58,929 bases of DNA from Oscillatoriales cyanobacterium (GTDB lineage Bacteria > Cyanobacteriota > Cyanobacteriia > Cyanobacteriales > Laspinemataceae), in the NCBI GenBank assembly GCA_011390955.1, contig JAABRM010000045.1, forward strand, positions 1 through 58,929, written 5' to 3'. Below, piece by piece: positions 30,002 to 53,567 of the stretch (positions are counted from its first letter, which is position 1; every line of letters begins with the position of its first letter). Under the pieces are notes generated by a model. The model saw only the letters and a program-made list of their open reading frames with translations, ran no database searches and was not told the origin of the DNA. Both the position numbers and the translations under genes were made by a program.

Positions 30002-31903
30002 TTAATTAAAAAATGCGGCATTTTCTCTGGCGATGGTGTTGACTACTAAGGCGCGATCGAGAAAGTCGTTACTTCTTTCACAAGAATTTTCCGCAATTAA
30101 CACGCAACCATGACAAGCTGCCCCTTGTAATAAGGCATCGTCTTCGCGATCGCCGGGAATATGTTGAGCGCAAATCGGATCGTTAGAACATATTTCTCCG
30201 CTTTCTAAGGCTAGGTCGAGGTAATATTCTAAGCGATCGCCGATTTCAATTAATCCCCCTAAGGTGCCTTCAGACCCACTCGAACCCGTATAAATTAATA
30301 TACCATAACCGAGGTTATCATTAGCATAAATTCTTTCTTTAATTGCCGTAGACGAATAGCCGCATTTTAAGGAAATGGTAGTAATTAATAAATGGGATAA
30401 AGAATGCAGCATGATGTAGGGAATGCCGGGAAATTGTTCCTCTTTTTTGGGAATATTGTTAATTTCCAGCCAGGTTTTATAGCCTCTTTGTAAATCTTTG
30501 CAGCGTTCTATTACGGGCGATCGCTTTGCCCAAGTTTCGATTTTTTCTTGGTGGAAAGAAAAGAAAATTCCCTCTCCTTTATTGGCGATCGCGGGCACCC
30601 ATAAGTTTTCACTGGTTTCCCAATCTAAACTTGCCCGACGGACATTAATATCTAATTCCCCGTTAATATCCGGCATTACTGCTTCAAACCGCGTAAAACC
30701 TACTTGGGCAATTACTTCTCGGAGTCGGTGAACTAAGACAATTTTATCTAGCCAAGGTTGCCAGTTACTTTTGATAGGTTTTGTGCGTAGATATGCCTCA
30801 AAATCTACCTCATCAATGGGTTTACTTTGTGCTGCTTGGGGCTCCGAACCACAAGCTAACAGCACCTCTAATTCCGCCTCTTTAATGGTTTTTTCCACTT
30901 CGGGATCGTCGCTTTTTCGGCGTTCTAATTCTCCCCACAGTTTATCGATCTTAAATATTTTTAATTCAGCATATCTTTTCTTTTTTAATTCATATTGTAA
31001 ATCTTCAATACTTTCGACTTCCTCTAATTCATCGGGATAAAATTTATCCACGACTTTTCTTAATTCGTGGTCGGAGTCCGGCAAAGAAATCACGCTGAGA
31101 GTTTGACTAAAATAAGCGTTACTAGCCGATCGCACTAATAAACGGCTTTGTTCCGGTTCATTAGTAGGAATTAATTCCTCGGTTTCTGGATCTCGTTTAT
31201 AACCTTGGCATTCTTCTTTGGTATTTTTAGTTGGATTTAACCACGGGCGATCGCCCAAACATTTGCCTAATATTTTGGAATTAGGTAACTTAGCCAAAGA
31301 AAGGGGATAGCGTTTTTTACAAGCTTCACAACGGACGAAAATTTCCTCAAAATCATTCCCCGAACCCGCTTCATCTAACCAAATTTGTCCCGGGCAGTTG
31401 GTTTGAAAATCTTGATGGGCAAAAGCCCGCCAATTAATATCACTTAAATGGCCATTTACGCAAGCTTGGACAAAGCGAACGGGCACCGCATGGCATTTTT
31501 TACCTTCCCATTTACAGCCTTTTTTAATCCCACTCCAAGGGACGAGGGGACGAGTGCGATATCGCTTACCTTGAATAATAATATTGCGTTCGATTTGCAC
31601 TAGAAACCAGCGGGGAAATACAAAAGCATCGATACCAGAAATCGCCGCCCCCGTCGGGTCGGAATCATCCACAGGTGGGGCATAAAGTTGCACATTTTCC
31701 CCAGGATTTATCTTTAATATTTTTTGCACTTTTTGCCGTAAACGTTCTTCTTGAATTGGCTGTTTATATCCTTGCCAATAGGATAAACCGCTAATCACCA
31801 CCGACTGTTCTGGTAAGTCTACCATTGCCCCCGGCCCAAAGGTAGTAAGTAGTTGACTTTGCCGGAGTTCGCCATCAGGTTGGATGTTATTTGTATTTGC
31901 CAT
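30002..31903 (-). CDS. drmB: DISARM protein DrmB (DUF1998)
   Basis: This 633-aa core DISARM component forms a complex with the DrmA helicase that loads on unmethylated phage DNA. The N-terminus GELRQSQLLTTFGPGAMVDLP is typical of DrmB. A cysteine-containing segment near residue 190 (VRCEACKKRYP) may bind zinc. The DUF1998 region at 500-620 shows IMLHSLSHLLI, GSEGTLGGLIEIG and the cysteine cluster CSNDPICAQH / GAACHGCVLIAENSC. It is the last gene of the minus-strand defence array, and no DrmC (PLD nuclease) gene follows. A 214-bp gap with two repeat elements separates it from the restriction endonuclease gene. Confidence 0.9.
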   Translation of the reverse strand: MANTNNIQPDGELRQSQLLTTFGPGAMVDLPEQSVVISGLSYWQGYKQPIQEERLRQKVQKILKINPGENVQLYAPPVDDSDPTGAAISGIDAFVFPRWFLVQIERNIIIQGKRYRTRPLVPWSGIKKGCKWEGKKCHAVPVRFVQACVNGHLSDINWRAFAHQDFQTNCPGQIWLDEAGSGNDFEEIFVRCEACKKRYPLSLAKLPNSKILGKCLGDRPWLNPTKNTKEECQGYKRDPETEELIPTNEPEQSRLLVRSASNAYFSQTLSVISLPDSDHELRKVVDKFYPDELEEVESIEDLQYELKKKRYAELKIFKIDKLWGELERRKSDDPEVEKTIKEAELEVLLACGSEPQAAQSKPIDEVDFEAYLRTKPIKSNWQPWLDKIVLVHRLREVIAQVGFTRFEAVMPDINGELDINVRRASLDWETSENLWVPAIANKGEGIFFSFHQEKIETWAKRSPVIERCKDLQRGYKTWLEINNIPKKEEQFPGIPYIMLHSLSHLLITTISLKCGYSSTAIKERIYANDNLGYGILIYTGSSGSEGTLGGLIEIGDRLEYYLDLALESGEICSNDPICAQHIPGDREDDALLQGAACHGCVLIAENSCERSNDFLDRALVVNTIARENAAFFN

Positions 31904-32117: not shown

Positions 32118-33029
32118 TTAAAAATGACCCCGATCGAGAACATTCTCCATTGATGGGCTTGTATCATCAATCAGAGATTGAATCTTATCGATCATTCTTT
32201 GAAATACATCGCTATAGTATCTAGAGGAATCCAAAAACTCTATATATTCCTGTCTATGGTTTCGTCTTGCTTCTGGGGTTCTATACTCTTGACGAATATT
32301 AGAGGACATTCGCTTCGTCTTGCGGACGATTAGAACATCATCAATTTGAGTTGAGATCAGCGAAACTGGGGTCATGTCCAGAAATTCACAGACAATAAAA
32401 TATAAAGATCCAGGAACAGCAGTTTTTAAGTCTCGACTTGTCGCTACTGCTTCTTGAAACATCGTTTTGTCCAGATTTGTTTTACATTCTGCACAAACAT
32501 ATCCAAGATGTGACTCAATGAACTTACAATCTTGAAATTCTCGATCGAATGATGATTTTAGATATAATTTTTTACCCAAGATAAAGTCTTGGTCTTTACT
32601 TCTAATAATTGGTTCAGTACCTTGACCTAAATTTCCCAGAGATGATAAAAAACTTAATCCAGCAAACGTATTTCTCGGTCCCAACTCAAAAGAATCATCG
32701 ATTCCCCGCAAACTACGAAAAACTACTTGTGGCAAGAATTCTTCTAGGATAGTATTGTCTAGTTTTAACTGTCCTTTCTGTCTGTATAGAAAGTTGTCTG
32801 TACTATCAAAAATCAAATCGAGTTCGATAAAACGCTTGTATCGGTTGGTTGCCTCAACGAGTCTTTCAACCGTATCCGGTTGACCCCGTTCAATTGATTC
32901 CATATCCGATATCCATTGATGATACTTTTTGATGGCTTCTTCTAACCGTTCTCGATCGCATTCAGGTAAGCGACGGTTGTTAAGACAAGCGATTAACTTT
33001 GTGTAGTGAGGTCGAGAAATTTCAGGCAT
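32118..33029 (-). CDS. Restriction endonuclease, Bpu10I-like
   Basis: The 303-aa protein resembles Bpu10I/BbvCI-type type II restriction endonucleases. The likely PD-(D/E)XK core is the region around residues 170-200: KFIESHLGYVCAECKTNLDKTMFQEA, where E-x-K of AECKTNLDK would bind metal. The C-terminus carries VPGSLYFIVCEFLDMTPV and a helical end. It lies 34 nt downstream of a DNA methyltransferase gene in the same direction, the expected restriction-modification arrangement. Its site between drmA and drmB is unusual. Specificity cannot be read from the sequence, and the family assignment is from memory of the motif. Confidence 0.7.
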   Translation of the reverse strand: MPEISRPHYTKLIACLNNRRLPECDRERLEEAIKKYHQWISDMESIERGQPDTVERLVEATNRYKRFIELDLIFDSTDNFLYRQKGQLKLDNTILEEFLPQVVFRSLRGIDDSFELGPRNTFAGLSFLSSLGNLGQGTEPIIRSKDQDFILGKKLYLKSSFDREFQDCKFIESHLGYVCAECKTNLDKTMFQEAVATSRDLKTAVPGSLYFIVCEFLDMTPVSLISTQIDDVLIVRKTKRMSSNIRQEYRTPEARRNHRQEYIEFLDSSRYYSDVFQRMIDKIQSLIDDTSPSMENVLDRGHF

Positions 33030-33063
33030 AGAGTAAAGTTTTATTTCTATTTTATTTCTAATT

Positions 33064-34272
33064 TTACAATGATTTTATCTGATCGCTGACTATTTTTCGA
33101 TCTAAAATCGGGGTGCTGTTAATATATTCTACTTTATCAATAGCCTCTTCAAGCAAACCGATATTTTGGCGATCGCATAAAGACAGGCTACTCTTTAATA
33201 TATCAAAAGCTACCTCCCTGGCAATTTTTTCCACTGCTTCCTGTGATATTTTATTATCCAAGTTATAAAAACCAATAATATCTTCCCTGATTAATTGGCC
33301 GAACTTATTTTTGAATTCTCTTTTTTGCCTTGATTTTTCTTGAAATAAGTTAGCTTTTAACCCAATTGTTTCGATGATATCAGCATTATAAAATGGTACG
33401 CCCATTACATTAGATTTATGCCCGATAATCAGGACGATTCGGGCTGTTTCTCTGCTGACTCTAGAAATCTCTCTGAGAGTATCAGCCATGTCTAAACAGT
33501 ATTGAACGACTGTGTAAAATCGATTGCTTCTGTTCGCTCTATTGGAGCCAATTTCTGACCGGGCTATTTTTAAAATATCCCAGCCGAGTATTTCAGCGGA
33601 TTTCCGATAGTTTTGATGATAATTAAATACATTAATATAGGGAGGAGATGTGACGACAAAATCTATCGAATTGCTTTCTAAGGGAAGCGATCGCGCATCG
33701 GCTAAACCCATATTAATCGGCTTATGGGAATAAGGAATATTTTCCATAAGACTTACCAAATCAGCAAATTTTGCCTGGACAGATTCATTGGTGACAGTAT
33801 TATTGACGATATCGAGTAAAATTACCAATGCGTCAAATATCTTGATTGATTCTCGATCTAGCTGATGCCTAATATTGTTGATTTTTTCGGCAAAGTTATC
33901 CACTGGATCTTGGGCAAAAATTCTAAAAGGAAACTCTCGATCTATGACTTCTCTGAGCAGGTTAATCGATTGTTTTTTTCTGGAATGATTAATAAATTCA
34001 TAGATTGTGCTAAGTATCCAAGCTGCCGGATTAATATCAAATCCATAGGCTTCAAGCTGGAGAATTCCCGCTTCTAATAAAACAGTGCCGCTGCCTGCAA
34101 AAGGATCTAAAATTACCGAATCATGCAGGCAGTATTCATTCAGGATAACCTCAATAAGCTGAGGCGAAAATTGACCGCGCCAGGTAAACAAGTTAGATCG
34201 TTTTTTTCCCACGATGTCAAGTTTTTCTTTGGGAATTGGTTTGTCAAACTGCTTCAATGTTTGTTGGTACAT
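33064..34272 (-). CDS. DNA methyltransferase (N4-cytosine or N6-adenine)
   Basis: The 402-aa protein has the AdoMet motif DPFAGSGTVLLEAG near residue 61 and the catalytic motif VVTSPPYINVFNYH near residue 207. TSPPY is typical of amino-methyltransferases, more often N4-cytosine. The order (FxGxG before SPPY) places it in an alpha/gamma-like arrangement. It should protect host DNA against the neighbouring Bpu10I-like endonuclease. It sits 75 nt after drmA and 34 nt before the endonuclease gene. It is distinct from the DISARM methylase DrmMI, so the island has two DNA methylases. Confidence 0.87.
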   Translation of the reverse strand: MYQQTLKQFDKPIPKEKLDIVGKKRSNLFTWRGQFSPQLIEVILNEYCLHDSVILDPFAGSGTVLLEAGILQLEAYGFDINPAAWILSTIYEFINHSRKKQSINLLREVIDREFPFRIFAQDPVDNFAEKINNIRHQLDRESIKIFDALVILLDIVNNTVTNESVQAKFADLVSLMENIPYSHKPINMGLADARSLPLESNSIDFVVTSPPYINVFNYHQNYRKSAEILGWDILKIARSEIGSNRANRSNRFYTVVQYCLDMADTLREISRVSRETARIVLIIGHKSNVMGVPFYNADIIETIGLKANLFQEKSRQKREFKNKFGQLIREDIIGFYNLDNKISQEAVEKIAREVAFDILKSSLSLCDRQNIGLLEEAIDKVEYINSTPILDRKIVSDQIKSL

Positions 34273-34347: not shown

Positions 34348-37300
34348 TTAATCCCGGCTAATCCAGATGTTAACGGTGGGTTCTACGTCCCTTAAACTGC
34401 GCGGGGTTTTGAATTTTTTCGCAGCTTCGGAAAGGTTGGCGGTTTTGGGGTCATTGGGATCGCACAATAGCGGGCCAATGTTTTCCGCTTCGGTCTGATT
34501 ATATTGCAGTATTTTATCGTTGCTTTCCCATAATTCTGTCCAAGTATCTAATAAATTCATTACCCGTTTTTCTATTTCTTGGCGAATTTTGGCGCTTTCT
34601 GCTGGGGACATGGGGGTATGACTCGCTGCCCGATCGCATATTGAAGCAGCCACCTGTTCGATAGTTGACCGGAGTTGGGCTATTTTACCTGCGCCCATAG
34701 GCGGAGTCATTTCGGCTAAATTTAAGCGGGTTAAGGCAACGGTGACAGCAGCTAAACCCCGATCTAAGGCCCGAACGGAGAAGGGAGTGACGCTGGTGAC
34801 TTCTACGGAACGATAGAAATTATTATGCCAATGCATGAATCTTTCATAATGTGAGCGATCGCGCGGTCGATGGATATTTAATAAAGTAATTACTAACCCC
34901 GGACGACTGGGGTCACGACCAACCCGGCTGCTACTTTGAATATATTCGGCGGCAGTTTTTGGTTGACCGAGAATCACCATTAATCCTAAACGGACAATAT
35001 CCAAACCCACAGAAATCATATTAGTCGCTAAAGCAATATCTACCCGTTCTTTTTTCGAGTCTTTTTCGGCAAAAGAACAGGATAAGCGGCGTTTGGTATT
35101 GGCGATTTTATCGGTAGTGACTCGCGAGGTGAGTTCTTGCTGATCGTCTTGGATTTTTCGGTTAGCAAATAAGCCGTCTTTTTCTCCATAACGCTGGCGG
35201 CTTTGATAGTTTTGCAGTCGAGAAACTACCTCATCTTCCACAATGCGACGACTGCCCCCTAATTCTCGCAAAGAGTTAAAATATCCCAGCAAGGTCATAT
35301 ATGGATCGACCGGGTTATTTGAATTTTTTTGGCCTCCAGCTAATTCCCATTGTTTTTGGGCTGCACTTAATAAGGCCAAATAGGTTCTTAATAAGACTAC
35401 TTTTAAACTACGGCCTTGGGCGGCTACTCCTATATATAGTCGTCCAGGGCTTTTTTTAGTCGGTATGGTTTGGGCAAAAAATGAATCATCCAAGTTTGGC
35501 CCCGGAGGAGGAAAAACTTGAATTTCCGTCCGATTAAATAGGGCTTGAATTTGTCGATCTGCCCTGCGGACTGTGGCAGTAGAGGCGATGATTTTTGGGC
35601 GAATTATTCTATCTCCCCCCTTTTCAAGGGGGGCAAGGGGGGCATCTCCTGCTGGGGTGAAAATTTTGCGGCTGCAAAGTTCATCGATCGCTGTTTCATA
35701 AAGTCCCACCATTGTCCCTAATGGCCCAGAAATTAGGTGCAATTCATCTTGAATAATTAAATCTGGGGGTGGCAAAGGTTGCTTGAGTTGAGTTCCTTTG
35801 ACACCTCGTCCTTTAATATTATCTGCGGTACTATAAAAACCATCACCAGTTTGATAATGGCTAACTTTACCAAATAAGGCCGCAGTTTGGCCAAACCACG
35901 GCAAACCCGCAAATTTATCTACGGTGGAAATGAGAAAACAAGGTAAACGCCGATAGATGGATTCATCGATCGCAATTATGGGTAAATGATTGTTTTCCTC
36001 AGAAAATTCACAGTCAAAGTTTTGACATTTAACTAATAGTTGCGTCGGGTGGCTTTCGTCCGGGTGTAACCAAAAAGAATCGGGCGTGAATTTTTCCCCA
36101 CACCAAGGACATTTTTCTAAGGGAATGGGCGATCGCGATCGCTTACTATCCTTTTTGAAATTAAGGGTAATTTGGCGGGCTGAATCGGGATTTTTATCGC
36201 CTTTTTTGCCCATACGGTTGGGGGTGGCGCTTTGTCCCACCCACAGGCCAATTTCAAACGGCCATTGTCCTAATTTTTTTAAGTTATCCGGGTGGTTTTT
36301 TCTGATTAATTCTAAGGCACAAATTAACCGAGTTGCCCTTTCTAATTGGTCTAAGGTTAGCAGGCGCAAAGTATAGCGCATGATGACACTAACTCCCGCC
36401 CCATATATGTCTTGATTGGTTAATCGGCGATAGACTAAAGTAAATGCTGCTAGTCCTAAATAGGCTTCGGTTTTACCGCCACCTGTGGGGAAAAATAGCA
36501 GGTCTACTATATCGCGATCGCTTTGATCCCCCCCTTCTTCCCCTGCCAAAGAAAGAGTTTGATTGTCATTCCCGCGCAGGCGGGAATCCATCTTATCGCG
36601 ATCGCTTTTATCCCCCCCTACCCCCCTTTGAAAGGGGGGAGTTTGATTGTCATTCCCGCGCAGGCGGGAATCCATCTTATCGCGATCGCTTTGATCTCCC
36701 CCTTCTTCCCCTGCCAAAGAAAGAGTTTGATTGTCATTCCCGCGCAGGCGGGAATCCATCTTATCGCGATCGCTTTTATCCTCCCCTACCCCCCTTTGAA
36801 AGGGGGGAGTTTGATTGTTGACAATACCGCCAATATTTAGTAAAATAAAAGCTAACTGAAATGGTCGCCAATTTGGGGCAGAAAAAGCATCCGCCGGTTG
36901 GTTAGTTTCTTGGGCTAACTGTTGGCGACGGGCTTGGGCTACCGCTTGATTGGCAAGTTTAAAGGCGTAAAATACTTGGTTATCTGTTAGTAAATCTATG
37001 CCTTGGTTGATGCGATCGCAGGCAATTTGCGCCCGACTTAGCAGTTTTTTGCTAGTTTCTGTTTGCTTCTCGGAGTCCACAGGAATCTTCTCTTGTTCGG
37101 CAATCCATTGGCGATAAGCAATAGTTAAAGGGCGGAGGTTTTCTTGCAAAGATGACCGTTGAGAAAATTGGCCAATTTTCTCCATATTTAACTCAACTTG
37201 GTCTAACTTTGCCGGGGCAACTTGGGCAACTTCTGCCGCAGGAACCCAAGTAGTTTTAATCAGCGGACAATAGGCGGAATTTTCCGGGTCAATTTGGGCA

Positions 37301-38595
37301 AAAGCGGAGGCATTGTGACCCACCGCAAACTCATAATTATGGCGATATTGGACAGCGGCAACTCTTTCGTCCCAATCATCATCATTGCCTTCTCGCAAGT
37401 CGGGACGAGGGAGAAATCCTTCCCTACATTCTAACTGTAATTGGGCTTGGAAAATATAGCTAGTATCTCGTTGTTTGCCTTCAGCAATTTTTCGTTTATT
37501 AACTAAAAATACGGATAAAATATTAGTATCGGCGAAAAGGCGACGATGATTTGCTTGAATATTTCCCTGGATATTTAAAGGGCGATTATTTATGGCTAAT
37601 TCTAACCCATTGCTATCGGGAATTGGCATATAAATTGTTTTTTCTGTGGTTCGCAGTTTTAGGGTTAATTCATATTTATGGGGAGTTCTTTGCCAATATT
37701 CTGGGTCCGAGAAACCGGGTTTCTCAGAAAGAGAATTGTCATTCCCGCGAAGGCGGGAATCCATATTTTCTGGTGTTAACTCGATCGCCTCATATATATT
37801 GTCATTCCCGCGAAGGCGGGAATCCATATTTTCTGGTGTTAACTCGATCGCCTTATATATATTGTCATTCCCGCGAAGGCGGGAATCCATATTTTCTGGT
37901 GTTAACTCGATCGCCTCACATATATTGTCATTCCCGCGAAGGCGGGAATCCATATTTTCTGGTGTTAACTCGATCGCCTCACATATATTGTCATTCCCGC
38001 GAAGGCGGGAATCCATATTTTCTGGTGTTAACTCGATCGCCTCACATATATTGTCATTCCCGCGAAGGCGGGAATCCATATTTTCTGGTGTTAACTCGAT
38101 CGCCTCATATATATTGTCATTCCCGCGAAGGCGGGAATCCATATTTTCTGGTGTTAACTCGATCGCCTCACATATATTGTCATTCCCGCGAAGGCGGGAA
38201 TCCATATTTTCTGGTGTTAACTCGATCGCCTCATAGTCTCCCCAAGTCACCGTCACCTCTAACTCTTCGATGGTATTTTTTAATAAGAAAGTCAGCCCTA
38301 CCGAGGAGGGAAACGGGGCAGTTCGGGCAGCTTTTTTTTCGGGACTGTAGCTATCTTCCCCGCGATCGCTTTTATTCAGGCTACTATTTAAATCATCTTG
38401 ACCGCGATCGTCATCAATGCGGTCTTTTATGGGGGCACCTTTGGGACAGAGAAAGCCGGTGAGATACCATTTAGTTGGGGGAGAATTAATAATTTCTCTC
38501 GCGTGTTCCATATCGTCGGGAGTTGGCCCGATTAAATCGAATTCTAAGGCATTAACCAGGATATCTCTAACTTGGGCTGAGGTAATTGAGGACAT
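34348..38595 (-). CDS. drmA: DISARM helicase DrmA with in-frame repeat arrays
   Basis: This 1415-aa helicase is the DISARM motor. Walker A is FFPTGGGKTEAYLG at about residue 700, Walker B is LIIQDELHLISGPLG, motif III is IIASTATVRRA, and the C-terminal motifs are ATNMISVGLDIV and SSSRVGRDPSRPG. Two repeat arrays interrupt it in frame: residues about 121-286 are eight 21-residue units (EAIELTPENMDSRLRGNDN plus two residues), and about 593-695 are 28-residue units ending just before Walker A. A third short insert lies near 982-996 (APLAPLEKGGD). All core motifs stay intact, so the protein may still work. The start is preceded by CAAC repeats. Confidence 0.93.
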   Translation of the reverse strand: MSSITSAQVRDILVNALEFDLIGPTPDDMEHAREIINSPPTKWYLTGFLCPKGAPIKDRIDDDRGQDDLNSSLNKSDRGEDSYSPEKKAARTAPFPSSVGLTFLLKNTIEELEVTVTWGDYEAIELTPENMDSRLRGNDNICEAIELTPENMDSRLRGNDNIYEAIELTPENMDSRLRGNDNICEAIELTPENMDSRLRGNDNICEAIELTPENMDSRLRGNDNICEAIELTPENMDSRLRGNDNIYKAIELTPENMDSRLRGNDNIYEAIELTPENMDSRLRGNDNSLSEKPGFSDPEYWQRTPHKYELTLKLRTTEKTIYMPIPDSNGLELAINNRPLNIQGNIQANHRRLFADTNILSVFLVNKRKIAEGKQRDTSYIFQAQLQLECREGFLPRPDLREGNDDDWDERVAAVQYRHNYEFAVGHNASAFAQIDPENSAYCPLIKTTWVPAAEVAQVAPAKLDQVELNMEKIGQFSQRSSLQENLRPLTIAYRQWIAEQEKIPVDSEKQTETSKKLLSRAQIACDRINQGIDLLTDNQVFYAFKLANQAVAQARRQQLAQETNQPADAFSAPNWRPFQLAFILLNIGGIVNNQTPPFQRGVGEDKSDRDKMDSRLRGNDNQTLSLAGEEGGDQSDRDKMDSRLRGNDNQTPPFQRGVGGDKSDRDKMDSRLRGNDNQTLSLAGEEGGDQSDRDIVDLLFFPTGGGKTEAYLGLAAFTLVYRRLTNQDIYGAGVSVIMRYTLRLLTLDQLERATRLICALELIRKNHPDNLKKLGQWPFEIGLWVGQSATPNRMGKKGDKNPDSARQITLNFKKDSKRSRSPIPLEKCPWCGEKFTPDSFWLHPDESHPTQLLVKCQNFDCEFSEENNHLPIIAIDESIYRRLPCFLISTVDKFAGLPWFGQTAALFGKVSHYQTGDGFYSTADNIKGRGVKGTQLKQPLPPPDLIIQDELHLISGPLGTMVGLYETAIDELCSRKIFTPAGDAPLAPLEKGGDRIIRPKIIASTATVRRADRQIQALFNRTEIQVFPPPGPNLDDSFFAQTIPTKKSPGRLYIGVAAQGRSLKVVLLRTYLALLSAAQKQWELAGGQKNSNNPVDPYMTLLGYFNSLRELGGSRRIVEDEVVSRLQNYQSRQRYGEKDGLFANRKIQDDQQELTSRVTTDKIANTKRRLSCSFAEKDSKKERVDIALATNMISVGLDIVRLGLMVILGQPKTAAEYIQSSSRVGRDPSRPGLVITLLNIHRPRDRSHYERFMHWHNNFYRSVEVTSVTPFSVRALDRGLAAVTVALTRLNLAEMTPPMGAGKIAQLRSTIEQVAASICDRAASHTPMSPAESAKIRQEIEKRVMNLLDTWTELWESNDKILQYNQTEAENIGPLLCDPNDPKTANLSEAAKKFKTPRSLRDVEPTVNIWISRD
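36511..36818. repeat. 84-bp tandem array inside drmA
   Basis: Four units begin at the HIP1-containing ATCGCGATCGC at 36511, 36595, 36679 and 36763. Two alternating types carry either a CCCCCCTTTGAAAGGGGGG stem or a CTTCTTCCCCTGCC segment. Three carry TTCCCGCGCAGGCGGGAA. The period is 28 codons, so the frame is kept. Confidence 0.92.
37738..38236. repeat. 63-bp tandem array inside drmA
   Basis: Eight units start at 37738, 37801, 37864, 37927, 37990, 38053, 38116 and 38179. Each holds the stem TTCCCGCGAAGGCGGGAA plus flanking sequence that encodes EAIELTPEN. The period is 21 codons. Units differ only at single bases (CATATA or TATATA). Confidence 0.95.
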
Positions 38596-40462: not shown

Positions 40463-43400
40463 CTATAAAAGATTAAGTTGATCGCTATCTCCCTCCTTTT
40501 TTACCTTCTTTTTCCGCTTACTTTGCTTCTTTTTCCCTTGGCTATGTTTGCCCAGGCGAATTTCCGCGTCATAGCGTCCCTGGTTCAGTTGCAAAAGTCG
40601 GGCCAAGATATCGTTATGGGTGGGTTCGTCCCAACGACGACGCCAGGGCAATTTGCGTTTGCCGGTTTGGACCGCGTTGGCAAATTCTAGGGCTGCGTCG
40701 GCGGTGGGGAAAAACAGGTCATGGCTATCTATGCGGTCTTGTATCTCCGGGGGATAGCTGTGGTCTGGGTCTGTGTCCAGGTAGTCCAGGGCAAAGCCGC
40801 ATTCCGGGGTCAGGTCCGACCAACCGTAGGCAGAGAAGACCGCTAGATCCATTTGTTCATGGAGTTCTCGCAGTTGCAGGATTTCTGGGTCGGTTTCGTT
40901 GGGGTCGTGAAAGCGGTTATAAGTGTCCGTAAGTCCCTGGTTATTTTCGATCATTAATTGGGCGCGAGTTTCGTAGTAGGTTTGGCCAATTTGTTCTAGG
41001 TTCGCGTCGGTTTCCCAGTTTTCAGGAAAGGGGAAGGTTTCAAAACAATCTGAGGGAGTGTAGCGGAGTCGATCTTCCAGAGATGATCCGAAAAATTGCA
41101 CCCAAGTTTCATGGATTCGGGATTGTAAAATAGTGAAACAAGCGTTTTTTTCATTGGCAATAATAACCAGTGAATCTGAATAAACTAATTCGCTAGGTAA
41201 AAATGTAAATGCCCCATGTTGGCCAACACGAGAAATAACTAAGACGCGGGAAAGAGGTGCGATCGCCTTAAACAATGCTGGTGTTGTTTCTCCAAATCGC
41301 CACCAATAGCGTTTACGAATTTCTCTATTTTGTTTTAATCGATCTGGCTTAACCTTTGCCTCAACGATCGCCATCAAATCAGGATAACCTTCTCTTGCTT
41401 CCTGTTCAGACATTTCCCCAAAATTAATCACATAGCGATGATGGGCATGAGTCGGACTAGAATTCACCTCAGACCCGCCAATATAGGGAAAAATCACCTC
41501 TTGATTCTTGGGATTTGCGGCAATTAAACGGTGCATTTCCGCGATCGGGGTCGCCTCCGCATTGCGATCGTCAAAAGTGAAACCCATCCCTAAAACATAA
41601 CTGCCAATAAAACTTTTTTCCGCATTAGCTAACAAAGGTTTCGGGTCATCATTTCCCCCGTCATTAAATAAGAATGCGGTAATTTTCTTCACCGGACGAC
41701 CATCAAGAATTGGCTGGGGCAATGGGTTTTGAACCCCCCCTTGCCCCCCCTTTTGAAGGGGGGGTAAATTTTTTTTCTCGTTCCCAGGCTCTGCCTGGGA
41801 ATGCCAGTTTAGAGGCTCTGCCTCGTGTGTATTAGGTTTGACTGGAGGCAGAGCCTCCGGGATAGCATTCCCAGGCAGAGCCTGGGAACGAGAGTTAGCC
41901 CCCCTTAAAAAGGGGGGTTGGGGGGTATCATCCGAAGCCCCCCTTAAAAAGGGGGGTTGGGGGGATTTCCCTACCTTAAAAATATGCACCAAACTAACCA
42001 CAACTGCCGCCATTCCCGGCCACCGATAACGCTGAGTTGCATGATAAATCATCCCGCCATGATTACAAATAAACCGTAAACCACTGCTGCGGGTATCCCC
42101 TTGAGAAATTGTATTCGTAGCAATTAAGCCAAAGGTGCCATAATCTCTAATTAAATTAAAAGAACGGCGGAAAAAATGCGCCACTAAATCCGCGTTTCCG
42201 TGGGATTCGGGATGAACTTCTTTTAACCAATCCACATATCCCTCTGGGTTGCCATTAATAATCGTATTTTTTCCCGCAAACGGCGGATTGCCCACAATAC
42301 AATCAAACCCAGGATTGGGGCGATTAAATACTTCGGGAAATTCCACCTCCCAATTAAACGGGGTGGGAATGATCCCCCCAACCCCCCTTAAAAAGGGGGG
42401 CTTTTCAGAAGTTTCTGTGTCTTTGCCCCCCCTTGATAAGGGGGGGTTGGGGGGGATCGAATTAGTTAAACTTTTCTCAACTAATTGCCGATATTTTTCC
42501 TCAATTTCTGCTTTTTCCGACTTATTTTTGCTTGCCCCCTCAAAGAAAGCCGCCACTTTTGCCCAAGCCGCAAACCGGACATTTTCTAACGCCGATTCTG
42601 ACTGATTCCACCGTTGGGCATTCGCCTCCGCGTCCGCATCAGTTTGGGTATCCGTTGCCTGAATTTGTAACCGAAAATCCTCGGACTTTTTCACCTGATT
42701 TCTGGTATATTCCCACAACGGTAAACCCGCCGTAACATCCACAAATGCGCCGATTTCTTTAGTAGTCAATCCTACCAAAGAATCCCCACATTTCAGGGCA
42801 TGATCCACAAAAGTAAACGGCGCATCTTTAGCTAAAGTAACTAACCATAAAGATAACTTAGCCAAATTCACCGCAAACGGGTTTTTATCCACTCCATATA
42901 AACACCGTTGGGCAATTTTCCGCCTCGCTTGAATAATGGGTATGGCTTTTGTATCTTTACCCTCGTTCCCAGTACCCTCGTTCCCAGGCTCTGCCTGGGA
43001 ATGCCAGTCTAGAGGCTCCGCCTCGTGTGTAGTAGTTTTGACTGGAGGCAGAGCCTCCGGGATAGCATTCTTCTCGTTCTTCTCGTTCCCAGGCTCTGCC
43101 TGGGAATGCCAGTTTAGAGGCTCTGCCTCGTGTGTATTAGGTTTGACTGGAGGCAGAGCCTCCGGGATAGCATTCCCAGGCAGAGCCTGGGAACGAGAAT
43201 ATTTCGCCCCTCCGCTCCCCTGCTCCTCTGCTCCTCCGCTCCCCTGCTCCCCTGCTCCTCCGCTCCCCTGCTTCTCCTCTGCAACTACCAACAATTCCGC
43301 CAATTGACGGCAAACTTCTACTAAAAATGCCCCAGACCCCATCGCTGGATCGCATATTTTTAAACTTAATATCTGTTCCGCTGTGGGCTGAGGCCCAAAC

Positions 43401-47870: not shown

Positions 47871-48455
47871 TTAGTTGCCGATTAAGCGGTTAAATAATAA
47901 GGTACTAGGTGAATATATTTTTAACATATTTTCTGGCCGATCGCATTTTTGGGGCGATGGTTTTTCCCGGGTCGATCGCTTAGGGATATTGATATGTTTC
48001 AGGCTAACAAACCGATATTCATACCCGGTGAGAAAATTTGGGCTGTCCCAAAATAGCTGACCAATTTTCTGACAATAGGCGATTAAGCATTCTGCCCCCT
48101 TAAGTTGTTGAATTACTTCCTTTTCTATGGCTTTACCCGCTTTCATTTCAATAAAAATCATAAATTTTTGCTGATTTTTTTGCTGATTTTTTTGCTGACT
48201 ATCATCGGAAATTAAAATATAGTCAGCCCGTTTACATTCTCCCTGGTTTCCCTGAAAAAAATCTTTCAGGGTCGGAAACTTATCAGATTTAATCACTAGG
48301 GTATTTTTTGGCACTTGGATAATCGGAACTTGGTAGTTTATGCCATGATCTTCCGTTAAAATAACTTGGAATTTATCATATTTTTGAATTAAGGGTACTT
48401 TAGCACTATCTTGAATCAGGCGATCGAGCATATTTAGGTCTGCCGAATCATACAT
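47871..48455 (-). CDS. Candidate PD-(D/E)XK nuclease
   Basis: This 194-aa protein has no family I can name. The stretch CKRADYILIS, a Gln/Lys linker and FMIFIEMKAGKAIEKEVIQQLKGAE fit the D-(x)n-E-x-K core of PD-(D/E)XK nucleases, with a following helix. The linker QQKNQQKNQQK comes from a 12-bp tandem repeat at about 48172-48204. The gene starts one base after the stop of the ATPase gene, so the two are translationally coupled. ATPase plus nuclease pairs are typical of defence systems such as Septu, Gabija or PARIS, but this pair is not one I recognise. Confidence 0.65.
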   Translation of the reverse strand: MYDSADLNMLDRLIQDSAKVPLIQKYDKFQVILTEDHGINYQVPIIQVPKNTLVIKSDKFPTLKDFFQGNQGECKRADYILISDDSQQKNQQKNQQKFMIFIEMKAGKAIEKEVIQQLKGAECLIAYCQKIGQLFWDSPNFLTGYEYRFVSLKHINIPKRSTREKPSPQKCDRPENMLKIYSPSTLLFNRLIGN

Positions 48456-48456
48456 A

Positions 48457-49839
48457 TTACTCGCCCCAAATAATCTGTTCTTGAATGCGGTTCATATCCG
48501 CGATCGCGCTATCAAAACTTTTGACTTCAATGCCCAATTCTGGGCTAATATCCGCTGGGGTAAGAGTTTGGCAGCGAGTTCTTTTTTGTTTACCGTCCAG
48601 TTTCAATAATGCTGCTTCGGCAATATACACTTTGAGGCGATCGGCTGAAAGTAATTCATCAGAACCATAGCCCTCAGTTTCCGCAATTTCTTTTAAATAG
48701 GACTTATCCTGATTTAGCATAATCAGCGTATTCAACTCTTTAATCAAATAGTCACTATGGGTCGTAACAAAAACCCGAACTCCCAAATTAACTAAGCGGG
48801 CCAAAATGCGGGCAATGCGGCGTTGATTTTCCGGGTGCAGATTTAATTCCGGTTCATCAATTATCAGTAAATTTCCCGGTTGGGCAATATGCTTTAAATA
48901 AAAGCCAATATCCAACAAAGAACGCACCGCACTAGAACTTTCATCCATTGATATTTTCACTTTTTTGCCCTGGGGAATATAATAGAGTTCATCATTCTGG
49001 GTCACGAGATAATCCCCACCGATAATTTCAGCAAAACTTTTGATTAAATCCGGGTGATGTTCGGCAATAAAACTATTTTGTTTAAAAATAGTTTCTAGGT
49101 TGCGAGTAAATTCTACATTTTTTTTAATGGGTAGGGGATAATCATCATAACCTTTCAATAATAACTCCATTGGATCGACATTTTTATCCACTTGACTCAA
49201 CTCTTCTAATAGTCGGTTGCGGGCAAAATTTAACTCTTTTCTAAAAATAGCCGTGCCAGTTCTTTCCGCGCTGGCAATAAAAGGAGTTGGGAAAATATCC
49301 CCGAAAAGCACATTTTTGAGATTATCACTAATTATTTGCTTAATAATGTCGCGAGGAATTTTAATGGTTTCTTTCTTGGAAAGCAAAGTAATGATAAAAT
49401 CCGCACTATTAGCAGTTTTCACCAGAGAAAATAAGTCAATATTCGCCGATCCTATTGACTGCTGATATTCTCGCTGTATATAGTTTGGTTCAGCCGTAAG
49501 CTGGACTTGAAACTCTGTATTTTTAAACCGACTTTCTGGGGCAGCAAAAACCCTAGGCAAGAACTGCGTATATTGCTGGCAACCTTGGGCGATAATTCTA
49601 GGAATTTCTCGCCCATATTGAGAAATATCTAGATGAATTACCCCATCAGTGAGCAATTGGGTAATAATTGCATCTTGGACATCAATTGAAATTGCTTCCT
49701 GCCAGTAAAGAAGAAAACCAAATAGGGCATAAGTAGCATAAGTTTTTCCCGTATTATTGCCACCACAAATAATCGTAAAATCCCCTAGGGTAAATTCCGC
49801 TTCTTTTAAGATACCGAGGTTTTTTATTTTGATTTTCAT
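48457..49839 (-). CDS. OLD/ABC-type AAA ATPase, candidate defence sensor
   Basis: The 460-aa protein has an SMC/RecF-like ATPase: FTIICGGNNTGKTYATYALFG (Walker A, residue about 25) and LLIIDEPELNLHPENQRRI (Walker B with the signature helix, about residue 325), then VFVTTHSDYLIKEL (H-loop). No TOPRIM domain follows, so it is not a full OLD nuclease. The C-terminal 80 residues lead to the stop, and the nuclease-like gene starts one base later. It lies between drmD and drmMI in the same direction as DISARM. The start sequence ATGAAAATCAAAAT resembles the leader motif before drmB. Confidence 0.85.
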   Translation of the reverse strand: MKIKIKNLGILKEAEFTLGDFTIICGGNNTGKTYATYALFGFLLYWQEAISIDVQDAIITQLLTDGVIHLDISQYGREIPRIIAQGCQQYTQFLPRVFAAPESRFKNTEFQVQLTAEPNYIQREYQQSIGSANIDLFSLVKTANSADFIITLLSKKETIKIPRDIIKQIISDNLKNVLFGDIFPTPFIASAERTGTAIFRKELNFARNRLLEELSQVDKNVDPMELLLKGYDDYPLPIKKNVEFTRNLETIFKQNSFIAEHHPDLIKSFAEIIGGDYLVTQNDELYYIPQGKKVKISMDESSSAVRSLLDIGFYLKHIAQPGNLLIIDEPELNLHPENQRRIARILARLVNLGVRVFVTTHSDYLIKELNTLIMLNQDKSYLKEIAETEGYGSDELLSADRLKVYIAEAALLKLDGKQKRTRCQTLTPADISPELGIEVKSFDSAIADMNRIQEQIIWGE

Positions 49840-50324: not shown

Positions 50325-53300
50325 TTAACTAGAAGTCGGCCATAAATAGACGACCCCAACGGGTTCTATGCGGATGGCTTTTACTTGGTAGCTTTGTTCG
50401 ATCCGTTCCGGTTCCGTATTAATTTCTTCGGTTAGTTGGTCTAACCGAATTTCCCAGTAACGGCGATCGGCTTCTATTTGTCGCTTTTCATCGGTATTAA
50501 ATAGAGAAAGTTGATAGGCTTCGATTTTTTGTCGATCGAGGATGCGATCGCGTTGTTCGGTTAAAAGTTGCTGCATTTCTTTGGCTTCTTGTTCCCCCCG
50601 TTTGGTGAGTTCTCGAATGGCCCGATCGCTGATAATTTCTGCCCGTTTTGCCAAATGCCCTTTTAATTCGGCAACATCTTGAGAAACATAAGCCTTAAAT
50701 CGGTCTAATAACTGGTCGGGGACATTGCGTAAAAAGCGATCGCCCAGACAAGTTTCTAACTCGTCCATCACATTGGCTTTTTCGGTTTCTGACAAAGGCC
50801 GTAATTTGCCTCGCCCCCGACTTTCTGGGTTATTCCATTGGGCAGCAACGGCCAAAATTTCGTCATGGAGTCGGGCTGCGCGATCGCCATATAAAGATAA
50901 CCGCCCCAAAATAACCACTTTAGGAATAGCATCATTAGTGAAGCAAACGCAAGCGCGAGTTAACTGGTCTTGGGCAAAACCTTGAGATAAAAATCGCCCT
51001 AATAATCGCTGAACTAAACGATGTTCTAAATGTAGATGGACAACTTCCCCGTCTAAAGTTCCAGGGTCACGAAATACCACGGGACGAATCGGAGTTTCTC
51101 GGCGCCAGTCCCAGAGAGTTTTGCCCTTGGTTCGCGGCGATCGCAAACTATCAAGAGTATTTGCCCAAGTTGCATCCCCAGTTTGTTGGTCTAAGTTCGG
51201 CAAAATATAGCGATCGGCGGAATTCGGGGCAGAACTTTCAAGCTGTAAACCTTCAGCCCCCATTAACTGCAAAGAGACAGAAAGGGCATGGCGAAAATGA
51301 ATGTCATCAAGTCCTAACCATTGCCGGGACTTTTGCAAAATTTCCTCTAATTCTTCCTGCTGCTGATAGAGTTTTTGCTGTTGTTCCCGAATCGGTTCAA
51401 GTTCTCCTTGAATGACGCGAGTTTTTTCATCAAATCCGGTTTCGCTGGATTGGGCGATCGCCTCAGTAAGTTTCCCCTCTTCTTTTGCGGAAATGCCCGC
51501 ATCCAAAATTTGGGTTAAATTTTTCTCCACTACGGGGGATAAACTGCCCAACTCTTGCAAAATAGTCTGGGTTTTTTGCACCAACACATCCAAAACCCGG
51601 TCTTCGGAACGTTGCTGCAAAATAAAATAGTGACAGCGGACAATTGTCTCTCGTTGCAACTTGCGATCGATGCGACCATTGCGCTGTTCCATGCGGCTAG
51701 GATTCCAGGGTAAATCAAAGTGAAATAAATCGGCGCAATAGTTTTGTAAATTCACCCCTTCTCTCGCAGCATCGGTAGCAATTAAAATCCGTAACGGATG
51801 CTGGGCTGGATTCTCATTAAATGCTTTTTTAATCTCCTCGCGGCGATCGTCCCCAATACCCCCATGAAACGTCCCTATCCGGTCTTCGGCTTGGTCAGAA
51901 TTCGCGATCGCCTGTTTTAGCTGCTGTTCTAAATAGCGTTTAGTATCCGCATATTCGGTAAAAATCAATACGCGGCGATCGTGCCATTGCGCCCCAGGTT
52001 GCCCTAAATTAGGACAAAGGTTTTCCCGCACCCACTCAATTAATTTTACCATCCGACTATCGGACTGATAGCGGGAATTTTCCGCAATATCCGCCATAGT
52101 TGCTAATAACTGTAACTCCTGGGGAGAAAGTTGCCCCAAATCTTGAGCAATTGCCTGAGAAGCGGCGGTCATTTGGACTTCTTCTTCTACCTCCACTTCC
52201 GCTTCCTCTAAATCGGCGCGATCGTCATCACTGCTAATACTTTCCTGCAATAAAGCATAACGCCCAGAATCAGCGGAAAAAGCGGAAAAACTCGCTAAAT
52301 TAGTCGATTTTGACTTCTCTATTGCCCGTTCAATGGACTGCCGATGCACCCGCAAAGTCCGGGCAAAAGCCTCAATAGAAGACAATAGCCGTTTTTGCAA
52401 AGAAGTTAACACCAACATAGCCGTAGTTTGGGTTGACTTCTTAGCAGTTTTTAACCGTTCTTCTCGACTACTGCGATAAGCTTGCAATAATTCCGCTAAT
52501 TTTAACTCTGGGGCATCCTTGGGCAACCCATCAATTATAATCGGAATCACCTGACGTTCGGGAAAATCCGCTGGATCGATCGCCCGTAAATCTTGTTTTA
52601 ACCGCCGTACCATCACCGCTGCTAATAGTCTCTTATCGACGGAAATACCGCGACAAAACCGCTGCGGATCGAGAATTTCTAATAAGGTAGAGAAACTATT
52701 AGAATGGCCATTATGGGGGGTCGCACTTAAGAATAATTTATGCTCAAATTTCGGGGCAATTTCCCGGACAACTTTGGTTAAATGGGAATCCACGGCATAA
52801 CGAGAACTGCTAGATGGGGCCGCATGATGGGCTTCATCTAATATTAGCAAAGAACCGGCAGAAAGATTATCTTTATCTAACCAATCTCGTAAAAGAGAAG
52901 CATAAATTTCATCCCGTAATAAAGCATGAGAAATAATAAATCGGTTGTGAGTTTTCCAAGGATTAATTCCATAACCCCGTTCTCTTCTTTTACTAGCCAT
53001 AAATTCGCGATCGAAGATTTGAAACAGCAAACCAAAGCGATGTTCCATTTCTTCTTGCCATTGTTGTACCACCGAAGGAGGGCAAGAAATCACCACTCGT
53101 TTCACTTTTTGCCGCAAAATCATTTCCCGCAAAATTAAGCCCGCTTCAATGGTTTTTCCCAATCCCACATCATCGGCAATAAACAAAGAAACCCGTGGCA
53201 TTGATAAGGCTTTCCGCAGGGGTTCTAACTGATAAGTTTTAATTTGAATACCCGCCCGATAGGGAGATTGAAATAATTCTTTTTTCGTGGAAGTAACGCA

Positions 53301-53567
53301 ATTCCAACGCAAAGTATGCAAATAAGCAGAAAAATCATCGGGGCGATCGAACCCTCTTTTTGCCACTAAATCCCAAGAGGACTCAGGCAAAATTTTGGCA
53401 TCAAGTTCTCGATGCCAAAATACGGTCAATTCTTCCCCGATCGCATCATCATCCACACAAGCTAAACTGACACTTTCATCCTTTCCTGCTTCCGTCGGTG
53501 GGATAATTTCCTGAACTAAATAATGGCGCGATCGGACTTTAACAATTTGCCCTAAAGATATATTCAT
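50325..53567 (-). CDS. drmD: DISARM SNF2-like helicase DrmD
   Basis: The 1080-aa protein is the class 1 DISARM helicase. SNF2 motifs: IADDVGLGKTIEAGLI (Walker A, about residue 132), LLILDEAHHAA (DEAH), LFLSATPHNGH (motif III), FTEYADTKRYLEQQL (motif IV), ATDAAREGVNLQ and MEQRNGRIDR (motifs V and VI). An acidic insert (DLEEAEVEVEEEVQ) lies between the lobes. The C-terminal part is long and helical. Unlike drmA and drmMI, it has no repeat inserts. The ATG is preceded directly by GTTG/CAAC repeats, without a Shine-Dalgarno sequence. It is the first gene of the island on the minus strand. Confidence 0.92.
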   Translation of the reverse strand: MNISLGQIVKVRSRHYLVQEIIPPTEAGKDESVSLACVDDDAIGEELTVFWHRELDAKILPESSWDLVAKRGFDRPDDFSAYLHTLRWNCVTSTKKELFQSPYRAGIQIKTYQLEPLRKALSMPRVSLFIADDVGLGKTIEAGLILREMILRQKVKRVVISCPPSVVQQWQEEMEHRFGLLFQIFDREFMASKRRERGYGINPWKTHNRFIISHALLRDEIYASLLRDWLDKDNLSAGSLLILDEAHHAAPSSSSRYAVDSHLTKVVREIAPKFEHKLFLSATPHNGHSNSFSTLLEILDPQRFCRGISVDKRLLAAVMVRRLKQDLRAIDPADFPERQVIPIIIDGLPKDAPELKLAELLQAYRSSREERLKTAKKSTQTTAMLVLTSLQKRLLSSIEAFARTLRVHRQSIERAIEKSKSTNLASFSAFSADSGRYALLQESISSDDDRADLEEAEVEVEEEVQMTAASQAIAQDLGQLSPQELQLLATMADIAENSRYQSDSRMVKLIEWVRENLCPNLGQPGAQWHDRRVLIFTEYADTKRYLEQQLKQAIANSDQAEDRIGTFHGGIGDDRREEIKKAFNENPAQHPLRILIATDAAREGVNLQNYCADLFHFDLPWNPSRMEQRNGRIDRKLQRETIVRCHYFILQQRSEDRVLDVLVQKTQTILQELGSLSPVVEKNLTQILDAGISAKEEGKLTEAIAQSSETGFDEKTRVIQGELEPIREQQQKLYQQQEELEEILQKSRQWLGLDDIHFRHALSVSLQLMGAEGLQLESSAPNSADRYILPNLDQQTGDATWANTLDSLRSPRTKGKTLWDWRRETPIRPVVFRDPGTLDGEVVHLHLEHRLVQRLLGRFLSQGFAQDQLTRACVCFTNDAIPKVVILGRLSLYGDRAARLHDEILAVAAQWNNPESRGRGKLRPLSETEKANVMDELETCLGDRFLRNVPDQLLDRFKAYVSQDVAELKGHLAKRAEIISDRAIRELTKRGEQEAKEMQQLLTEQRDRILDRQKIEAYQLSLFNTDEKRQIEADRRYWEIRLDQLTEEINTEPERIEQSYQVKAIRIEPVGVVYLWPTSS

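Follow-up and report, generated by a model that had tools for sequence, protein, structure and literature searches.

Palindrome-bearing tandem arrays in the reading frame of the DISARM helicase gene drmA of Planktothricoides

The nearest precedents for the translated palindromic DNA that we describe here are, judged from the cited parts of those papers, intragenic REPs (PMC3733652) and Rickettsia palindromic elements (RPE; PMC10969869). Intragenic REPs are likewise short, high-copy palindromes lying in reading frames, many of them in genes of DNA synthesis and repair, and the quoted results give clusters in Thauera and R. conorii that encode 43 to 82 residues (PMC3733652). Compared with the clusters as portrayed there, the drmA array encodes 166 residues as a homogeneous tandem of a palindrome plus neighbouring DNA, its unit number varies from one sister genome to another, the palindrome ends of the drmA copies carry no GTAG or CGTC tag, and no transposase linked to this family was found. 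RPE also place palindromic DNA in frame in unrelated protein genes, but the relevant section gives them a length of about 150 bp and a conserved peptide (PMC10969869), whereas the drmA palindrome measures 24-30 bp and is used in three frames. PARCEL repeats share with our case dyad-symmetric tandem repeats that code for protein domains in variable number; in the cited excerpt they form a 25-residue amphipathic motif recognized at the protein level, with many members in membrane-targeted proteins (PMC2996958), whereas the drmA peptide is not kept. Strain-variable intragenic tandem repeats of bacteria resemble the array in that copy number differs (PMC2639597, cited part), although here each unit centers on a dispersed palindrome. 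The drmA array thus differs from the REP and RPE precedents in tandem size, homogeneity, strain variability and the lack of a kept peptide. Among the matches listed, literature searches for the palindrome letters and for variable repeats in genes of defence gave nothing on this case.

The window, by which we mean the whole stretch of 58,929 nucleotides analysed, is part of the 7.12-Mb draft genome, in 113 contigs, of a filamentous cyanobacterium of the genus Planktothricoides, and it carries an anti-phage DISARM cluster (Table 1). Class 1 DISARM is defined by drmA, drmB, drmMI and drmD together, and also includes drmC; the first four genes are all present in the window. The identity of DrmA is given by NCBIfam NF038325, with 1197.8 bits against a cut-off of 950, and by the PADLOC DrmA profile. 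The drmMI product, assigned by PADLOC, has only BREX matches in NCBIfam, all below cut-off. No PADLOC match to DrmC was obtained among the 19 different ORFs scanned (for two of these ORFs, among the matches listed), one of the two scans of 10 ORFs each having covered E values up to 1e-8. A Bpu10I-type restriction-modification pair (32118-34272) is embedded in the cluster, and a gene pair between drmMI and drmD (47871-49839) matches the PADLOC candidate system PDC-M47.

Table 1 Features of the window, in window positions
Feature	Position	Strand	Basis
drmB	30002..31903	-	PADLOC; NCBIfam NF038324 above cut-off
Bpu10I-type restriction endonuclease, between drmB and drmA	32118-33029	-	
DNA methylase, between drmB and drmA	33064-34272	-	
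drmA, DISARM helicase, 1415 aa	34348..38595	-	NCBIfam, PADLOC
Third extra drmA stretch, TPAGDAPLAPLEKGG, before STATVRR	35614..35658	-	Homologue alignment
Array 2, three copies of the array-1 palindrome, between GGIVN and SDRDIVDLLFFPTGGGKTE	36510..36818	-	Tandem Repeats Finder, pattern match
Second palindrome family, GAGAAACCGGGTTTCTC, adjoining array 1	37709..37725	.	Sequence
Array 1, 63-bp unit x 7.9, palindrome-bearing units	37735..38233	-	Tandem Repeats Finder, pattern match
drmMI methyltransferase, 1530 aa	40463..45055	-	PADLOC
In-frame array in drmMI, 105 bp	42977-43175		
In-frame array in drmMI, 24 bp	43209-43276		
drmD, SNF2-like DISARM helicase	50325..53567	-	PADLOC; NCBIfam NF038317 above cut-off

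Tandem Repeats Finder describes array 1 as 7.9 copies of a 63-bp period with 98% matches and no indels, and each of its eight units, as assembled in the draft, contains an exact copy of the palindrome CATTCCCGCGAAGGCGGGAATCCA (starting at 37740, 37803, 37866, 37929, 37992, 38055, 38118 and 38181). The palindrome consists of 8-bp arms around a 4-nt loop, and its copies in drmA read TTGTC-ATTCCCGC-loop-GCGGGAAT-CCA; with up to 3 mismatches allowed, 100 shuffled versions of the window contained no match to the pattern. The drmA frame crosses array 1 free of stops, and the predicted translation consists of EAIELTPENMDSRLRGNDNI[CY]-type repeats in frame with the rest of the protein. An earlier note on this DNA had proposed an eight-copy, 63-bp array within the DrmA frame, and the repeat search, the exact palindromes and the open frame confirm it. 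The note was also right that the array adds coding residues, although the count is 166 and not about 168, and its view that the palindrome was inserted once in drmA must be amended, as array 2 is a second site in the gene; it is plausible that the 36 bp separating the palindromes are host sequence throughout. The computed peptide is hydrophilic and acidic, with a GRAVY of -0.97. We read the opposite-strand ORFs that span the array (37551-38462 and 37646-38236) as by-products of the period being a multiple of three. In these genomes the GAGAAACCGGGTTTCTC family that adjoins array 1 also neighbours REP-associated tyrosine transposase-like genes.

As RNA, array 1 folds far better than shuffled sequence (z = -4.89) and forms eight 8-bp stems, in keeping with the idea that the repeats act as nucleic acid, their hairpins altering operon transcription, RNA stability or replication. 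We regard such a role as very doubtful, because hairpins come with the palindrome itself and because most palindrome clusters in this genome (30 of the 35 examined) lie outside genes.

Array 2 is located directly N-terminal of VDLLFFPTGGGKTE, just before Walker A; its palindromes are 84 bp apart in the window, and Tandem Repeats Finder gives a period of 168 bp. The third extra stretch of drmA, TPAGDAPLAPLEKGG, is missing from all four aligned homologues of other genera. Within drmMI, the 105-bp and 24-bp arrays are both absent from one sister genome (G002, below), where other inserts occupy the same loops.

Two sister genomes of the genus were available for comparison: Planktothricoides sp. 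SR001, a short-read draft, and G002, a single 7.2-Mb contig. Array 1 has eight units in the window and five in each sister (166, 103 and 103 residues), and array 2 has three palindromes in the window, one in SR001 and three in G002, where the spacing is 96 bp against 84 bp in the window; errors in copy number are possible in both draft assemblies, the SR001 array (about 315 bp) being longer than the 251 bp that its reads averaged (PMC5460452). All three drmA alleles are open, with 1415 residues in the window, 1284 in SR001 and 1348 in G002, and once the inserts are subtracted DrmA has 1151 residues in every genome. The dN/dS values of this remainder (0.163 for window and SR001, 0.151 for window and G002, 0.098 for SR001 and G002) are low, an indication that purifying selection acts on drmA while the inserts are in place. 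At the nucleotide level SR001 is closer to G002 (98.8% identity) than either is to the window (97.1 and 97.5%), and the unit number that the two sisters have in common fits this relationship.

The comparison bears on two other explanations. In a draft of 113 contigs with several arrays at contig ends, and with reads as short as those of SR001, a multi-unit array could be an assembler artefact; we consider this highly unlikely, as three assemblies made separately, including the single contig of G002, are multi-unit at the same place and the unit variants differ between strains. The earlier note took the near-identity of the units as a sign of copy-number change that could phase-vary the protein, and near-identical tandem units that vary in number would fit on/off switching of drmA by unit number. 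Such phase variation is not supported, and we find it extremely unlikely: in each of the three genomes the palindromes of drmA are spaced by multiples of three, steps of 63, 84 or 96 bp cannot shift the frame, every allele is open, and the array lies in the coding region rather than in a promoter.

To place the arrays on the protein, DrmA of other genera was examined. Searching the C-terminal part of DrmA in 59 relatives gave matches in 15, including the own genome and both sisters, and a scan of named genomes for DrmA gave eight loci, SR001 among them. The palindrome is absent from all 21 drmA loci of other genera (L037-L043, L047-L060), a set that includes several fragments and three loci from one genome; this supports the expectation of the earlier note that homologues lack the segment. 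Within the genus, none of the three genomes has a drmA site free of the palindrome, and because the array is present in all of them the insertion step is one that we infer. Between GDY and the W.R motif that follows it, the linker has 7-48 residues in the 15 other-genus loci where the motif search worked, compared to 179 in the window; ahead of the Walker A strand, it has 15-20 residues in other genera, where measurable, compared to 110 in the window. The first linker of Serratia DrmA (PDB 7s9v) has about 20 residues, counted on the alignment. These lengths indicate that both arrays occupy linkers, and that the first linker is variable across genera in any case.

An AlphaFold2 model of residues 1-1013, built with five homologues (six sequences), is poor overall, with a mean pLDDT of 45. 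Values are about 20-30 along both arrays and fall below 50 for residues 125-301 and 594-707, and also for 1-98 and 876-1013. In the model, strands 111-124 and 300-313 flank array 1, which contains one 9-residue helix (128-136) and 3-residue turns; array 2 is nearly structureless. The model gives a hint that the arrays are probably disordered, and the hint is a faint one because stretches that are expected to fold also score below 50.

The trigger loop of Serratia DrmA comprises residues 176-232, and its deletion changes the choice of DNA substrate (PMC9142583). The segment of our protein that aligns with it, within a stretch of only 9.8 bits, stops some 30 residues short of array 1, and on that alignment array 1 would lie outside the trigger loop, in a different loop. 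It is conceivable that the arrays tune DISARM, with one long, flexible acidic tract near the autoinhibitory trigger loop in sequence, another tract beside Walker A, and unit number under selection, acting through changed DNA loading or ATPase activity. The proximity to a loop whose removal alters substrate choice favours this, as does the strongly acidic character of array 1 in each genome (net charge -22 in the window, -21 in SR001 and -15 in G002). Against it stand the apparent placement of array and trigger loop in different loops, the variation in array length between strains, and the wider distribution of the palindrome, to which we now turn.

With any 4-nt loop allowed, the palindrome occurs in 426 exact copies in this genome (7.1 Mb; the reversed control gave 0), 155 times in SR001, 181 times in G002 and 12 times in a fourth genome, G003. 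Among relatives it is rare, being present in 7 of 148 genomes of the order, these four included, and in 6 of 117 genomes of a phylum sample that includes the own genome. In length and abundance it corresponds to a REP, a palindrome of 20-40 bp at high copy number. There are 40 + 77 direct pairs of the palindrome in this genome, compared to 7 + 13 in SR001 and 8 + 12 in G002, counts that include pairs skipping a unit and, for the short-read draft of SR001, may reflect collapsed arrays. Tandem pairs are thus about six times as frequent here as in either sister, so that the bigger drmA array accompanies a genome-wide excess.

Genes with a Y1_Tnp domain (PF01797) were considered as mobiliser of the drmA palindrome and dropped, as ATTCCC-N8-12-GGGAAT was found near none of the 15 Y1_Tnp places of the three genomes (loci of 2.2-3.3 kb; the 15 include split hits of one gene). 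Nine of the 15 loci hold other palindromes, AGAAACC-GGTTTCT or GTGGGCA-TGCCCAC, and the same two families flank two REP-associated tyrosine transposase genes (NF047646; L099 4253-4900 and L098 7707-8420). Elsewhere in the assembly, contigs C69 and C56 (L070 1-347; L080 4357-4458) end in one common 44-bp palindrome array. Since G002 has a 44-bp array with the same spacer and three palindromes, the assembly probably broke there inside a longer array.

Across the 35 clusters in the examined stretches of this genome, all spacings are multiples of three in 5/5 clusters within a long frame and in 8/30 others (p = 0.004), where a long frame means at least 300 further residues, a threshold chosen after a first look at the data. 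The corresponding figures for the sisters are 5/5 and 2/14, and are not independent because several loci appear in both genomes. This test is conditional and partly circular, since a frame-breaking array would count as lying outside a gene. A stricter test on palindrome arrays gave 3/3 in genes against 10/30 (p = 0.052), with two in-gene arrays near contig ends scored as outside. When all tandem repeats in 42 stretches of this genome are considered (the window included; picked for palindromes or transposases and hence non-random), the period is divisible by three for 25/27 in genes against 40/99 elsewhere (p = 5e-7). These counts show that the mutational process accepts any period.

Arrays of the palindrome occur in the reading frames of drmA, a TPR/GT61 glycosyltransferase gene, two CHAT proteins and a kinase-FGE protein, and in-frame palindromic insertion into unrelated genes is a feature of RPE as well. 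The TPR/GT61 gene has seven palindromes in this genome, 63 bp apart, in frame and with the inverted loop TTTC, and a single palindrome with the loop GAAA in the sisters (DNA was aligned for G002; the SR001 protein is identical there). Here the two steps proposed in the history of drmA are visible in another gene. The first duplication was not simple, as part of the amplified unit has no sister counterpart. Together with the 8, 5 and 5 units of drmA, the step from one palindrome to seven bears out the copy-number change suggested in the earlier note, which is seen here among close relatives, and it supports amplification of the palindrome with flanking DNA in 21-codon steps. In the kinase-FGE protein (L104 3160-5268; L106 3521-5815) the interdomain linker is a PVIPAQAGIH-type repeat; G002 has 3 intact palindromes there, and SR001, where the linker is longer, has 7. 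The palindrome is translated in three frames across its host proteins (MDSRLRGND, SFPRMREST and VIPAQAGIH), which rules out a conserved repeat peptide.

These observations also bear on the tuning of DISARM by the arrays. The same palindrome is amplified in unrelated host genes (kinase, CHAT and glycosyltransferase) and for the most part in non-genic DNA, the peptide frame is not constant between host genes, and this genome has more arrays overall, with its roughly six-fold excess of tandem pairs. Tuning is less likely for these reasons, and we hold it improbable.

The arms of the palindrome are invariant in all 18 array-1 units of the three genomes, and in 3 of the 18, all in SR001, the loop has changed as a block from CTTC to GAAG, replacing LR with EG. 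Palindromes with a reversed loop (CTTC or CTGC, usual orientation) number 18 in this genome and 8 in each sister. Inversion of the spacer of an inverted repeat via template switching is described for yeast coding DNA in the cited part of PMC8604942; the likeness lies in the block reverse-complement between inverted-repeat arms and the swapped residues, and the difference in the setting, which is inverted repeats in genes there and units of an amplified array plus other palindrome copies here.

Taking the evidence together, we are fairly confident that the arrays are explained by insertion of a palindrome, amplification driven by its hairpin and inversion of its loop, with selection for the reading frame as a filter. 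A very abundant short palindrome would have been inserted in two linkers of drmA before the divergence of the three genomes, given that both sites are filled in all of them. Its 8-bp arms may fold as a single-strand hairpin, and misalignment at such a hairpin during replication would duplicate or delete a unit made of the palindrome and flanking DNA. Template switching would invert the 4-nt loop, and the products of both kinds of change are seen. Changes that are not multiples of three would break drmA and be lost, whereas whole-codon changes would survive because the repeat peptide is hydrophilic, probably disordered, and located in linkers whose length differs from one DrmA protein to another in any case. 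The outcome would be a conserved helicase of 1151 residues with inserts whose lengths depend on the strain.

The drmA array looks like tolerated repeat growth and not like a switch; its effect on DISARM is most likely small, and we infer neutrality. A further possibility, which we see as a long shot, is that arrays seeded by palindromes keep supplying new protein length in this genus, and that in drmA the strain-variable acidic tracts near the trigger loop and before Walker A have been co-opted as adjustable autoinhibitory arms. If that were true, unit number and block loop inversions, of which the change from LR to EG lowers the charge by 2 per unit, would set how readily DISARM is loaded onto DNA. 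Several steps are caught in close relatives, from a single palindrome through whole-codon tandem growth to block inversion of the loop, with the genes still open, and the growth of proteins by palindromic DNA becomes directly testable. Differences in DrmA length and charge between sister strains may be mutational and not adaptive.
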